Assembly: GCA_029319145.1 (NCBI GenBank)
Contig: CP119753.1
Coordinates: 558,001-622,000 of the forward strand
Direction: 5' to 3'
DNA length: 64,000 nt
DNA from: Microbacter sp. GSS18
Lineage (GTDB): Bacteria > Actinomycetota > Actinomycetes > Actinomycetales > Microbacteriaceae
The position numbers and the translations under genes were made by a program. The notes beneath the pieces were generated by a model, which saw only the letters and a list, made by a program, of their open reading frames with translations, was not told the DNA's origin and ran no database searches. This document shows, piece by piece, positions 1,393 through 5,995 of this stretch. The number at the start of each line of letters is the position of its first letter. The stretch's first letter is position 1.

Positions 1393-1946
1393 GCGAGTCC
1401 TCCGGCGACCCGCGTCCGCGACCCCGGTACGGCGAGTACGCCACCCCCGAGGAGCAGCGGGCACGCATCCAGGTGCCCGACCCGGCTCTCATGGAGCCGG
1501 TGCCGGTGGCATCGCCGGAGCCGGCCGCGCCGGCGGAGCCGACGCCCGCGTCCCCGGCACCGCGGCGCGGCGCGGGCCGCACGGCCGACCGCATCGCGAC
1601 GTGGGCGCTGCTGGGGTACGGCTTCTTCACGGTGCTGTCGTCGGTGTCGGCGCTGGCGGACTACGGCTCCTTCGCCGCGACGTTCCTGGATCTGCTCGGC
1701 GTCGACGCCCAGCTCGCCGATCCTGCGGCTGGACGGGGCTGGGGGATCGCCGCGGCCATCGTGCTGGCGGTCGGCTGGGTGCTCACCGCGGTGCTGTCGT
1801 GGGCCGGCCTGCGGGCCGGGCGCGTGAGCTTCTGGATCCCGATCGTGGGGGGCATCGTGTCCAACATCGCCTCGGGGACGCTGATGCTGGTGCCGATCAT
1901 GTCGGATCCGGCCGTGTGGGACGCGCTGCTCGCGACCGTCGGCTGA
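1389..1946 (+). CDS. DUF6264-type membrane protein
   Basis: This 185-residue protein has a proline/alanine-rich cytoplasmic N-terminus of about 65 residues. Three to four hydrophobic segments follow, in [20 protein letters not shown], the [20 protein letters not shown] region and the C-terminal [20 protein letters not shown] region. The GTG start overlaps the ispH stop by 4 nt. It resembles the actinobacterial DUF6264 family, whose function is unknown. Proximity to ispH does not by itself show a role in isoprenoid synthesis. Confidence 0.75.
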
Positions 1947-1958
1947 CAGACTCGAGGC

Positions 1959-2519
1959 ATGACCTCCTCGGGAACCCTGCTCGCCGTCTGCGTCGTGCGC
2001 GAGCTGCGCGCCGACCCCGGCAGCGTCGGCGTGACCGCGATCGACAAGTCGTCGGTCGCCGGACCCGTGCGCGTCGGGCCCTACGGCGTATACGCCGACG
2101 TGCAGGCGGATCGCAGGCACCACGGCGGCTTCGACAAGGCGCTCTACGCCTACGGGCAGGACGACGCCGACTTCTGGTCCGCGCAGCTCGGCCGTGAGCT
2201 CGCGCCGGGGTTCTTCGGCGAGAACCTGCGTGTGACGGGGTTCGACGTCAACGCGTCGCGCATCGGCGACGTGTGGCGCATCGGCGAGAGCGTCGAAGTC
2301 GCGGTGACGATGCCGCGCACCCCCTGCCAGACCTTCGCCCGCTGGGTGGGCGGCGACGACGAGCGCGGGTGGGTCAAGCGCTTCTCGTCCGAGCGCCGGC
2401 TCGGACCGTACCTGCGGGTTCTCCGTGGCGGGCGCATCCGGGCCGGCGACGACGTGGTCGTCGTCGCCTCCGATCCGGATGCACCGGGTCTGCTCGACCG
2501 CTACGTCGACCCCGAGTGA
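1959..2519 (+). CDS. MOSC domain-containing protein (YiiM-like)
   Basis: The 186 residues form a single MOSC domain, the C-terminal fold of molybdenum cofactor sulfurases. Visible motifs are GPYGVYADVQADRRHHGG, FWSAQLGRELAPGFFGENL and the conserved cysteine in MPRTPCQTFARW. The N-terminal start KSSVAGPVRVG and the length match YiiM-type stand-alone MOSC proteins, some of which reduce N-hydroxylated compounds with a bound molybdenum cofactor. The gene starts 12 nt after the DUF6264 gene, so it is probably in the ispH operon. Its substrate cannot be read from sequence. Confidence 0.85.
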   Translation: MTSSGTLLAVCVVRELRADPGSVGVTAIDKSSVAGPVRVGPYGVYADVQADRRHHGGFDKALYAYGQDDADFWSAQLGRELAPGFFGENLRVTGFDVNASRIGDVWRIGESVEVAVTMPRTPCQTFARWVGGDDERGWVKRFSSERRLGPYLRVLRGGRIRAGDDVVVVASDPDAPGLLDRYVDPE

Positions 2520-2553
2520 GCCGGTCCGGTCGGGAGCGCGCGGCCCAGCCGCA

Positions 2554-3054
2554 TCAGCCGACCACGCCCGACCACACCGCACGCGCCCCGCTGTCGCCCA
2601 CGAGGACGACCATCACGAGGGAGCCCGCGCCGACCGCGAACGCGAGCGCGCCGAGCGCGATGACGACTCCGTGCGCCCAGCGGCGCGACCGTACTCGCAC
2701 GCGCGCGTCCGCATAGCGGAACCACGCCCACTGGCCGGCCGCGACGACGAACAGCGCGATCGTCCATGGCAGCAGCGCCTGCCCGAAGGCCTGGTGGCGC
2801 TGGACCGCCGGGAGCGGGCCGACCACCTCGGCCAGGGCCCGCCCGGCGGCGGCCGTGATCGGGACCAGGATCAGGACGGCCACCGCGGCCGCCGGGGTCA
2901 CGATGCCGAGCCGCCGGCGCGCGGCGGGCCACACCGTGCCCAGCCACAGCGCGAGCACCGTGAGCGGGATCAGGACCACGACGGCGTGCACCAGGAGCGG
3001 ATGGGCCGGGAGCCCCGCCACCTCGAAGATGCCGGTGTCTGCGAAAAGGGTCAT
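2554..3054 (-). CDS. DUF2231 membrane protein
   Basis: This 166-residue integral membrane protein has four hydrophobic segments. It begins with the DUF2231 hallmark VAGLPAHPLLVHAVVVLIPL (conserved His residues in the first segment), followed by RRLGIVTPAAAVAVLILVPI, LLPWTIALFVVAAGQWAWF and a C-terminal HGVVIALGALAFAVG segment. Function is unknown; relatives often lie near oxidative or envelope stress genes. The ATG at 3054 sits about 7 nt after a minus-strand ECF-type -10 element, so the mRNA may be leaderless. The gene is divergent from the sigma gene and appears to share its regulation. Confidence 0.8.
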   Translation of the reverse strand: MTLFADTGIFEVAGLPAHPLLVHAVVVLIPLTVLALWLGTVWPAARRRLGIVTPAAAVAVLILVPITAAAGRALAEVVGPLPAVQRHQAFGQALLPWTIALFVVAAGQWAWFRYADARVRVRSRRWAHGVVIALGALAFAVGAGSLVMVVLVGDSGARAVWSGVVG

Positions 3055-3061
3055 ACTCGTG

Positions 3062-3089
3062 ACAACGGTGCGGCGGCCGCCGCGGTTCA
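3062..3089 (-). promoter_or_regulatory. ECF-type promoter of the DUF2231 gene
   Basis: On the minus strand, TGAACC (3089-3084) is followed by 16 nt and CGTTGT (3067-3062). The same -35 and the same spacing appear upstream of the sigma gene. The predicted transcription start falls on or next to the ATG at 3054. Confidence 0.65.
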
Positions 3090-3092
3090 CGG

Positions 3093-3120
3093 TGAACCTT
3101 CCGGGCTCGCCCGTCGTGTT
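3093..3120 (+). promoter_or_regulatory. ECF-type promoter of the sigma/anti-sigma operon
   Basis: TGAACC (3093-3098), a 16-bp spacer and CGTGTT (3115-3120). This matches the form known for mycobacterial SigL promoters (TGAACC, 16-18 nt, CGT). It suggests that the sigma factor transcribes its own gene. The 5' leader would be only about 12 nt and would include the GGGGAGG ribosome site. Confidence 0.7.
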
Positions 3121-3138
3121 CCCTTCGGGGAGGTCCGC

Positions 3139-3645
3139 ATGGGCGATGACGATGAGACGCGACTGAGCGCGCTCTACGACGCGCACGCGGCACCGCTGTG
3201 GCGGTATACCGTCTCGCTGACCGGCGACCCGTCCGGAGCCGACGACGTCGTCCAGGAGACCCTCCTGCGGGCCTGGCGCACACCGCGCATCCTGGAGGAG
3301 GAGCCGGCCGCGGCCCGCGCGTGGATCTTCACCGTCGCGCGGCACCTCGTCATCGACGACGCCCGCAGCGCGCGCCGCCGCCACGAGACACCGGTCGCCG
3401 AGACGCCCGAGCGCGCAACCGCCGACGCCACCGACGCGCTGTTCGAGTCGCTCCTCGTGCAGGACGCCTTGGCCGCCATCACGCCCGATCATCGGGCGGT
3501 CGTTGTGCGCGCCTACTATCGCGGCATGACCGTCGCGCAGATGGCCGACGAGCTCGACATCCCCGAGGGCACCGTCAAGTCGCGCCTCCACTACGGTCTG
3601 CGCGGGCTGCGGCTCGCGCTGCAGGAGAGAGGGGTGACGCGGTGA
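3139..3645 (+). CDS. ECF RNA polymerase sigma factor, SigL-like
   Basis: This 168-residue group IV sigma factor has region 2 (about residues 8-80: LSALYDAHAAPLWRYTVSLT, GADDVVQETLLRAWR, WIFTVARHLVIDDARSARRR). Region 4 follows at about 110-162, with its helix-turn-helix YRGMTVAQMADELDIPEGTV and KSRLHYGLRGLR. There is no region 1.1 or 3. The ATG at 3139 follows GGGGAGG by 6 nt. The stop overlaps the GTG of the zinc anti-sigma gene, the usual sigma/anti-sigma coupling. Its promoter, the divergent promoter and that of the downstream lipoprotein share one consensus, indicating positive autoregulation. The assignment to the SigL group rests on that promoter form and the neighbouring anti-sigma. Confidence 0.9.
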   Translation: MGDDDETRLSALYDAHAAPLWRYTVSLTGDPSGADDVVQETLLRAWRTPRILEEEPAAARAWIFTVARHLVIDDARSARRRHETPVAETPERATADATDALFESLLVQDALAAITPDHRAVVVRAYYRGMTVAQMADELDIPEGTVKSRLHYGLRGLRLALQERGVTR

Positions 3646-4334
3646 ACGAGGACCACCCCCGGTTCGCGCAGTGGGATGCCGCCTACGTGCTCGGAGCGCT
3701 GAGCCCGGCCGATCGCCGCCTGTTCGAGGCGCACCTCGAGCAGTGCGCCGTGTGCCGGGGATCGATCGGCGAGATCGCTCCGACGCTGGGGCTGCTCTCG
3801 CGCCTGACCCGCGACCAGGCGGAGGCGATCCCGGACGAGGCGGGACCGGATGAGTCCGCGCGCGGGCGGTTCGTCGCACGCGCGGCGCAGCAGGCCCGGC
3901 GGCGGCGAGCGCTCGCCCGGTCGTCGGTGATGGCGGCGGCCGCCGCCGTGGTCGTGTTCGTCGTGCTCGCCGTCGCGATCGCGATCGTGCCCGCGCTGCG
4001 CGGGATCCAGGTCGTGGCGCTCGAGCCGGTCGCCGCCGTGCCCGTCACCGCGACGGTGGAGCTGGTGGACGCGGCGTGGGGCACGCGGATCGAGGTGGAG
4101 TGCAGCTACGACGGGGACGGGGCGGATGCTCCCGAGGACGGCTGGCCGTATGCACTGGTGGTCACCGCCGCCGACGGGACCGAAGAAGAGGTCTCGACGT
4201 GGCGCGCGCTGCCCGGGGCGACGGCGCGCGTGAGCGCGGGGACCGCCGTCGACACCGGCGACATCGTCGCGATCGAGATCCGCGCCGTCGTCTCCGGACG
4301 CGTGCTCATGCGCGCCGACATCCCCGCGGGCTGA
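3642..4334 (+). CDS. Zinc-binding transmembrane anti-sigma factor (RslA-like)
   Basis: The 230-residue protein has an N-terminal ZAS domain with the zinc motif H31-x3-C35-x2-C38 (AHLEQCAVCRG). One transmembrane helix lies at about residues 88-113 (SSVMAAAAAVVVFVVLAVAI). An extracytoplasmic domain of about 115 residues follows, ending in RVLMRADIPAG. ZAS anti-sigma factors hold the cognate ECF sigma inactive at the membrane until zinc loss, thiol oxidation or proteolysis. The GTG start overlaps the sigma stop (GTGA). The TGA stop at 4332 is itself the first three bases of the next ECF promoter. The outer domain probably senses or responds to an envelope signal; this is inference. Confidence 0.88.
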   Translation: MNEDHPRFAQWDAAYVLGALSPADRRLFEAHLEQCAVCRGSIGEIAPTLGLLSRLTRDQAEAIPDEAGPDESARGRFVARAAQQARRRRALARSSVMAAAAAVVVFVVLAVAIAIVPALRGIQVVALEPVAAVPVTATVELVDAAWGTRIEVECSYDGDGADAPEDGWPYALVVTAADGTEEEVSTWRALPGATARVSAGTAVDTGDIVAIEIRAVVSGRVLMRADIPAG

Positions 4335-4359
4335 ACCGCGCCGGGCGCCGTCTCGTGTT
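4332..4359 (+). promoter_or_regulatory. ECF-type promoter of the COG4315 lipoprotein
   Basis: TGAACC (4332-4337), a 16-bp spacer and CGTGTT (4354-4359). Both hexamers are identical to those of the sigma-gene promoter. The -35 element overlaps the stop codon of the anti-sigma gene. This gives the lipoprotein its own copy of the regulon promoter. Confidence 0.7.
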
Positions 4360-4407
4360 CACATCGGCGGCCGCCGTCCGGCGGTCGTCCGACCGAGGGA
4401 GATACAC

Positions 4408-4902
4408 ATGAGATCGCGCATCACCACGGCCGTCGTCTCGGCGACCGTCATCCTGCTCGCGCTCGCGGGCTGCACGTCGACCACCGCCGCTGATCCGGAG
4501 CCGGCGCCGGCGCAGACCTCGCAGGCGGAGGAGCCCGCGCCCGCCTCGGAGGTGGTGCTGCAGGTCGCCGACTCGGATCTCGGCGAGATCGTCGTGGACG
4601 GAGACGGCATGACCGTCTACATGTTCGACAGCGACAGCCAGGGGGGTGACGTGAGCACGTGCGAAGGGCAGTGCGCGGCGAACTGGCCCGCCGTGGGCGC
4701 CGCCGAGGGCGTGCCCGACGTCGACGGCGTCACGGGGGAGCTCGGCACCATCGCGGGCGTCGACGGTCAGCCGCAGCTGACCCTCAACGGGTGGCCGCTG
4801 TACTACTTCGCCGGGGATGCAGCCCCCGGCGACGTCAACGGCCAGGGGGTCAACGGCGTGTGGTGGGTGCTGAATCCCGCCGGTGAACGCCAGGCGGAAT
4901 GA
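4408..4902 (+). CDS. COG4315-type lipoprotein with secreted repeats
   Basis: This 164-residue exported lipoprotein has the signal TAVVSATVILLALAGC with lipobox LAGC (Cys23) and a Glu/Ala/Pro-rich linker. Two copies of the secreted repeat of unknown function (Pfam PF03640 type) follow, each with a Y-x-[FWY]-x-x-D core: VYMFDSD and YYFAGD. Each is followed by a Trp-containing segment (CAANWPAVG, NGVWWVLN). GAGGGAG precedes the ATG. The protein should be tethered to the outer face of the membrane; its ligand is unknown. It is probably the third member of the ECF regulon. A strong hairpin follows the gene. Confidence 0.87.
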   Translation: MRSRITTAVVSATVILLALAGCTSTTAADPEPAPAQTSQAEEPAPASEVVLQVADSDLGEIVVDGDGMTVYMFDSDSQGGDVSTCEGQCAANWPAVGAAEGVPDVDGVTGELGTIAGVDGQPQLTLNGWPLYYFAGDAAPGDVNGQGVNGVWWVLNPAGERQAE

Positions 4903-4909
4903 CCCGGCA

Positions 4910-4955
4910 CAGGCAGAGGGGCTGCGTCGACGGGTCGACGCAGCCCCTCTGCCTG
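4910..4955. terminator. Perfect 21-bp hairpin between convergent genes
   Basis: A 21-nt arm (4910-4930, starting CAGGCAGAGG) is perfectly complementary to 4935-4955 with a 4-nt loop. There is no T-tract. It lies between the converging lipoprotein and aldolase genes and probably ends transcription in both directions. Confidence 0.75.
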
Positions 4956-4963
4956 TCCGTGCG

Positions 4964-5995
<1,032 letters not shown>

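Follow-up and report, generated by a model that had tools for sequence, protein, structure and literature searches.

Promoters of the mycobacterial extracytoplasmic function (ECF) sigma factor SigL carry a −35 hexamer resembling the TGAAC(C) type. Their −10 region is given as C-14 G-13 T-12 G-11, and in Mycobacterium tuberculosis (Mtb) SigL the residues His54 and Asp60 read promoter positions −12 and −11 (PMC6372665). The zinc ligands of the anti-sigma factor RslA are His25, His50, Cys54 and Cys57, and redox-driven zinc release is described for anti-sigma factors of this type (PMC2877774); RslA is also a target of Rip1 in Mtb (PMC10449499). The natural job and the signal of the SigL-RslA switch are unsettled, and a version that occupies one locus with three promoters offers a simple place to learn them. 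Such a version is described here from Microbacter sp. GSS18, in a window of 64,000 nucleotides (bases 558001-622000 of the 4.03 Mb single-contig genome, CP119753.1). It consists of a sigma/anti-sigma operon, a divergent gene for a DUF2231 membrane protein and a downstream gene for a lipoprotein of PF03640, the family that we take to be COG4315 (Table 1). The three promoters beside the sigma gene are almost certainly real, and we consider it quite probable that together these genes form a self-contained SigL-RslA-type circuit driving an exported, probably redox, module. Genes, promoters and their conservation, promoters in trans in other genomes, and start-codon spacing were computed here.

A sequence-only reading of the window had placed three TGAACC-N16-CGTNNT sites at this locus with a constant 16 nt spacer; the positions are exact, and the spacer is borne out at all three. 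At the lipoprotein promoter, the TGA of TGAACC doubles as the anti-sigma stop codon. The looser pattern TGAACC-N15-17-CGT occurs five times in the window against 1.19 expected, a number reached by none of 100 shuffles. The strict motif has 19 matches genome-wide, three of them clustered within 1.3 kb at this locus, and the 16 others all fall inside predicted genes, one (L007) near a gene end, 40 nt ahead of an aroE-like start. Gene calls across the genome came from a crude codon-based finder, and because this mis-called the sigma gene, homology was used for this locus instead. The family consensus TGAACB-N16-CGTKKH gave 21 matches, three here and 18 elsewhere, 15 of the latter inside genes; with the spacer set to 15 nt this consensus had 11 matches, all inside genes. 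Among the three matches outside genes, L207 has no called gene downstream on its strand and L213 lies 78 nt ahead of a glgA-like gene. The third, L215 (1694643-1694670 of the genome), stands 203 nt before a secreted gene that looks by eye like a pyrroloquinoline quinone (PQQ)-repeat protein, and may be a weak target or chance. The family-consensus scan thus yielded no convincing further regulon member in the genome, and a genome search found a single COG4315 gene and a single DUF2231 gene, both at this locus; therefore the whole regulon, by consensus, is four genes. If that scan is complete, the direct effect of deleting the sigma gene would run only through these four.

Table 1. Features of the SigL-type locus, in window coordinates
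Feature	Position	Strand	Remarks
DUF2231 membrane protein	2554..3054	-	166 aa, four predicted long helices; PF09990
DUF2231 gene promoter	3062..3089	-	-35 TGAACC 3084-3089, -10 region CGTTGT 3062-3067
Back-to-back -35 elements GGTTCA-CGG-TGAACC of two divergent promoters	3084..3098	.	3 bp gap
Sigma/anti-sigma operon promoter	3093..3120	+	-35 TGAACC 3093-3098, -10 region CGTGTT 3115-3120
ECF sigma factor, SigL type	3139..3645	+	168 aa; NF007227; Mtb SigL match
RslA-type membrane anti-sigma	3642..4334	+	230 aa; GTG start; overlaps sigma stop; HxxxCxxC zinc motif
Lipoprotein gene promoter	4332..4359	+	-35 TGAACC 4332-4337, -10 region CGTGTT 4354-4359
COG4315/PF03640 lipoprotein	4408..4902	+	164 aa; two repeats; PF03640

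Conservation was followed in two sets of loci. Among 199 genomes of the same family, our own included, the sigma gene is present in 71 at E ≤ 1e-30; the family loci (n = 71) are the window plus 70 of the 71 sigma matches from elsewhere, with one second copy included and G166 left out. A second set of 80 named actinobacterial loci brings the combined number to 151; some species are shared between the sets (the sigma sequences of L053 and L128, for example, are identical). The nearest named relatives of our sigma factor come mostly from Microbacterium spp. (66-73% identity); Agromyces and Pseudolysinimonas match at 72% too, which places the family as Microbacteriaceae. In 63 of the 71 family loci TGAAC-N17-CGT is present in the 260 nt ahead of sigma, and spacings of 15, 16, 18 and 19 occur in none of the 71. 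The remaining eight have a same-strand site farther upstream, before another gene (YceI, COG4315 or flavin mononucleotide (FMN)-binding; 3.1 kb from sigma in L097), so that sigma in these loci is presumably part of the upstream gene's operon. Among the named loci the site lies within 300 nt upstream of sigma in 58 of 80 and within 1000 nt in 65, and any other spacing from 10 to 24 occurs at most six times. The autoregulation of sigma proposed in the sequence-only reading is supported by this conserved predicted promoter. A divergent pair of sites less than 400 nt apart precedes sigma in 63 of the 151 loci, and in seven of these the −35 boxes are, as in the window, so close (2 or 3 bp) that two polymerases would presumably not be bound simultaneously.

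The lipoprotein matches PF03640 over two stretches (E = 7.9e-33; 112.1 bits, cut-off 24.4), a lipobox (LAGC) is visible in its sequence, and an alignment of 21 COG4315 sequences has invariant Cys85 and Cys89 within SxCxGxCxxxWP, a CxxxC motif. A secreted-repeat lipoprotein had been named among the targets, and the predicted promoter is indeed conserved there: of the sigma-linked COG4315 genes, all 22 in the family set and 16 of 18 in the named set have a same-strand site in the 400 nt upstream. Across the 199 genomes, 35 have a COG4315 gene, and sigma is found in 30 of these versus 41 of the 164 others (Fisher p = 2e-11, uncorrected for relatedness). If the site is a working sigma promoter, it should stay with target genes that have been relocated. 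There are eight sigma-positive genomes whose only COG4315 gene is unlinked, i.e. on another contig or more than 400 kb away from sigma; six of them, in three genera by code, carry the site in the 500 nt upstream, for which the density in our own genome gives a chance of about 1.3% each. The site is missing in G007 and G075, the second of which is by eye a diverged form. One genome, G171, has two SigL-type sigma genes (L098 and L106), one beside COG4315 with a site and the other with no detected output.

The DUF2231 protein matches Pfam PF09990 at E = 1.9e-6 (28.4 bits, cut-off 26.4), and its structure model is a four-helix bundle with a predicted local distance difference test score (pLDDT) of 91. 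The earlier proposal of a His-containing membrane protein as target fits both the conserved predicted promoter and the alignment of 23 DUF2231 sequences, window included, in which H18, H23 and H87 are invariant; by the positive-inside rule these histidines probably face outward. A site stands immediately before DUF2231 in 8 of 25 family loci and in 7 of the 8 named ones. In others DUF2231 follows a Rieske gene; counting up to 1500 nt upstream, 22 of the 25 sigma-linked family DUF2231 genes have a site. In the window the DUF2231 ATG begins 8 nt after the CGTTGT box. Of the 15 loci with a site no more than 400 nt ahead of DUF2231, 13 have the start codon 7 or 8 nt past the CGTNNT box, which corresponds to position −2 or −1 in Mtb SigL numbering, and the DUF2231 mRNA is therefore probably leaderless. 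From this spacing its transcription start is expected at about 3053-3054 (minus strand). The expected starts at the sigma operon and lipoprotein promoters are about 3129 and 4368 (plus strand). The two exceptions, L050 and L155, have an ATG at equal distance with the frame broken further on; in L155 (Microbacterium elymi) the sigma gene is frame-broken too, and sequencing error or decay could account for these breaks.

The SigL-type label that the sequence-only reading gave the sigma factor stands. The protein scores 228.5 bits against NF007227/PRK09645 (cut-off 202), a model that we take to be the SigL subfamily, its entry title being merely 'sigma-70 family RNA polymerase sigma factor'. Its best PDB match is Mtb SigL (6dv9_F, E = 1.6e-53), with the best non-SigL sigma at 1.8e-13, and a promoter of the SigL-type form, TGAAC(C)-fixed spacer-CG(T), lies ahead of its own operon. 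The only PDB match of the anti-sigma factor at E ≤ 0.01 is RslA (3hug, E = 4.5e-17). The zinc character attributed to it is likewise upheld, as H5, H31, C35 and C38 align with H25, H50, C54 and C57 of RslA, matching all four ligands; H31, C35 and C38 are invariant in 19 anti-sigma sequences including that of the window, and H5 is not conserved in all relatives. The outer domain has a lone cysteine, Cys154, invariant within WGTR-x4-C-x-Y in the family set. A GT-x4-6-C outer motif is present in 124 of the 138 anti-sigma sequences, mycobacterial ones included, that a motif search recovered from the 151 loci; this search required HxxxCxxC, which all 138 therefore have by construction, and 13 loci yielded no sequence. 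One M50 intramembrane protease was found in the genome.

The gene at the divergent or neighbouring promoter varies between relatives. It may encode COG4315, a Rieske [2Fe-2S] lipoprotein, a YceI-like protein or an FMN-binding lipoprotein, and further outputs are a second small membrane protein and, in mycobacteria and some relatives, a putative thiamine diphosphate (ThDP)-type enzyme. Sites within 400 nt upstream precede the sigma-linked Rieske genes in 19 of 21 family and 7 of 10 named cases, YceI in 6 of 6 and 3 of 4, the FMN-binding gene in 3 of 3 and 1 of 1, and the putative ThDP-type genes near sigma in 10 of 10 (named set). The Rieske lipoprotein has DUF2231 nearby in 15 of 21 family loci. 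The FMN_bind match falls just under the Pfam cut-off, and this lipoprotein is accompanied by a putative NqrB-like membrane protein, a label that is a reading of its sequence, a Pfam search of a 230 aa piece having given no match. With search seeds drawn from the family set, plus the named set for two families, 49 of the 71 family loci and 29 of the 80 named ones proved to have at least one of COG4315, Rieske, YceI and FMN/NqrB close to sigma. Eighteen genomes of family loci with no recognised output were searched: 15 have no COG4315, one has COG4315 beside a second sigma copy, and two have an unlinked COG4315 with a site. In a quick tree of the sigma sequences from 150 of the 151 loci (all but L179) and Mtb SigL, with 46 of 146 inner branches left open for low support, the output label, one per locus with Rieske taking precedence, switches no fewer than 18 times across the 87 loci that carry a label. 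Judged from these alignments and site patterns, the control parts (promoter and anti-sigma) are kept in many actinobacteria and the predicted exported outputs are swapped. The 'unknown output' of the sequence-only reading is narrowed by the families recognised in those 49 and 29 loci; what the output does biochemically is inferred.

Two of these outputs deserve separate mention. (i) In mycobacterial loci L149, L152, L159, L162-L165 and L182, a SigL-type site precedes a gene for a putative ThDP-type enzyme of about 570 aa, which sits downstream of the anti-sigma gene, roughly +1250 to +1630 from sigma; its start codon is at leaderless distance in L149, L162 and L165. (ii) At a SigL-type site, loci L178, L180, L181, L183 and L186, and similarly L174, have another small sequence, membrane-protein-like and about 120-155 aa long. 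It lies beside Rieske in four of six loci and beside a detected DUF2231 in none of the six, and may be a DUF2231 analogue.

We propose the following circuit, in which the signal, the release step and the redox function are inferred. In the resting cell the membrane anti-sigma would hold sigma through its zinc-binding domain, as the 3HUG match suggests. An envelope or redox signal would reach the anti-sigma via its outer domain, via oxidation of the zinc cysteine pair, or via both, and sigma would be freed, probably with the help of the one detected M50 protease, by analogy to RslA and Rip1 in Mtb. RNA polymerase with the freed sigma would then read TGAACC-N16-CGTNNT at the three promoters: transcription of its own operon would give positive feedback together with more anti-sigma, the divergent DUF2231 gene would yield a leaderless mRNA, and the COG4315 lipoprotein gene that follows the operon would be switched on as well. 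The product would be a four-helix membrane protein, probably with outward-facing histidines, and a cysteine-containing surface lipoprotein. We think that these two form a small extracytoplasmic electron-transfer or redox-protection pair; an exported redox step is proposed because the DUF2231 histidines, the COG4315 CxxxC and the Rieske, YceI and FMN-binding alternatives all point there.

Several observations weigh against a redox circuit of this kind. In 15 of the 80 named loci the 1000 nt ahead of sigma contain no same-strand site, and three of the 25 sigma-linked family DUF2231 genes lack a site in the 1500 nt upstream. The tested output families are all absent near sigma in 20 of 71 family and 39 of 80 named loci, and the linked target in mycobacteria looks like a ThDP-dependent enzyme and not a redox lipoprotein. 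Second COG4315 copies (G006, G089 and G190) have the site in none of three cases, and one of five sigma-negative genomes (G177, 88% complete) has a site before COG4315; the contrast between sigma-positive and sigma-negative genomes, 6 of 8 versus 1 of 5, is by itself not significant (p = 0.10). The DUF2231 Pfam family was tried as a marker of sigma and rejected as too common (79 of 199 genomes). Structure models of DUF2231 and COG4315 gave no informative fold match, and their binding of heme, quinone or metal is putative. In addition, His54 and Asp60 of Mtb SigL are not conserved: Thr48 and Glu54 take their places here, and these residues vary across the 63 loci, as does the −11 base (T 27, G 23, A 8, C 5). 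This pair is not a family-defining feature of the SigL type. With the two residues replaced and the −11 base varying between loci, the predicted −10 recognition is SigL-like and not identical to that of Mtb SigL. An association between the −11 base and loop residues 54-67 was seen; it still includes shared ancestry and was not used as evidence.

The main rival accepts the promoters as real and has the exported module handle supply or trafficking of a metal (iron, zinc or copper), with the CxxxC lipoprotein binding the metal and DUF2231 as membrane partner. It takes this rank because Mtb sigL mutants are weak in low iron (PMC10449499). The invariant CxxxC of COG4315 suits it well, and the Rieske and zinc themes fit metal handling equally; the FMN-binding, putative NqrB-like and YceI outputs, however, are unlike metal-binding families, and no metal regulator or transporter was noticed among the four genes of the locus. 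On balance we regard metal handling as unlikely, and prefer an exported redox module.

A different objection is that another ECF sigma factor with an overlapping consensus, SigE or SigH like, is the main user of the sites. The genome does offer candidates, with 14 sigma region-2 matches, and SigL, SigE and SigH sites are similar in Mtb (PMC4821874); yet use by another factor would not be expected to keep the site before sigma itself in 63 of 71 loci, to place it before the unlinked COG4315 gene in 6 of 8 sigma-positive genomes, or to make COG4315 co-occur with a SigL-type sigma, and we judge it highly improbable. Chance, with TGAACC-N16-CGT a by-product of high G+C coding sequence, was rejected as having next to no probability, for although the 16 strict matches elsewhere all lie inside predicted genes and 15 of the 18 family-consensus matches elsewhere do so too, as background would, three clustered intergenic sites, a single spacing conserved in 63 of 71 loci and a DUF2231 start codon kept at 7-8 nt past the box in 13 of 15 loci leave it in effect refuted by footprinting.

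As to the surroundings, the MOSC-domain gene at 1959-2519 was considered as a member of the unit and set aside: it runs convergently to DUF2231, lacks a site, and was not found beside sigma in the loci of the 70 relatives that were searched with it. No sigma-70 promoter or terminator match was found within 1900-5100, and a search for RNA structure in the lipoprotein leader found nothing (z = −0.94).

More broadly, and only tentatively, SigL-RslA may be an envelope-redox switch of long standing in actinobacteria, in which the sensor is fixed while the exported electron carriers that answer one signal are interchangeable: the COG4315 lipoprotein, the Rieske lipoprotein with DUF2231, YceI, and the FMN-binding lipoprotein with the NqrB-like protein. 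The mycobacterial polyketide and ThDP-enzyme targets would then be later additions. If true, this would open a first way into the function of COG4315 and DUF2231, for neither of which our literature search found a described function. The search found no one-locus DUF2231 plus COG4315 form, leaderless target or picture of a kept sensor with swapped outputs, although the primary papers on the Mtb SigL regulon and on ECF classification lay outside it and may describe them; nor did it find a paper joining COG4315 with a sigma factor. Queries for ECF with Rieske, lipoprotein or YceI, and for the SigL or SigU regulon with RslA or Rieske, gave none related by title and start of abstract, and SigL with Microbacterium gave none relevant by title among the matches listed.

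Among known systems, SigK of Mtb and other actinobacteria has a promoter that differs from the SigL-type site. It shares with our locus an ECF sigma factor whose anti-sigma, RskA, is a Rip1 target (PMC10449499), and exported targets; however, it is a distant match (4nqw, E = 2.7e-11; 82.6 bits against the NCBIfam SigK model, cut-off 226), and the targets differ. In Streptomyces coelicolor a COG4315-type lipoprotein, SCO0930, is listed in the regulon of the ECF factor SigU (PMC6295645), but SigU is a different sigma factor, and our lipoprotein matches the SCO0930-family model below its cut-off. Mtb SigL-RslA (Rv0735-Rv0736; 6dv9, 3hug) has the same sigma family, order of sigma then anti-sigma, zinc-ligand set and CGT(G)-type own promoter, and the outer GT-x4-C motif is shared with its mycobacterial relatives L148, L150 and L159, the comparison being with these and not with Mtb RslA. 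The differences are that the consensus regulon here is one 2.4 kb locus with DUF2231 and COG4315, whereas the characterised Mtb SigL promoters named in PMC6372665 (P-sigL, P-pks10 and P-Rv1139c) concern other genes, and that His54 and Asp60 are replaced. By the features tested, then, bar these two −10-reading residues, the circuit is a relative of SigL-RslA and not a new kind.

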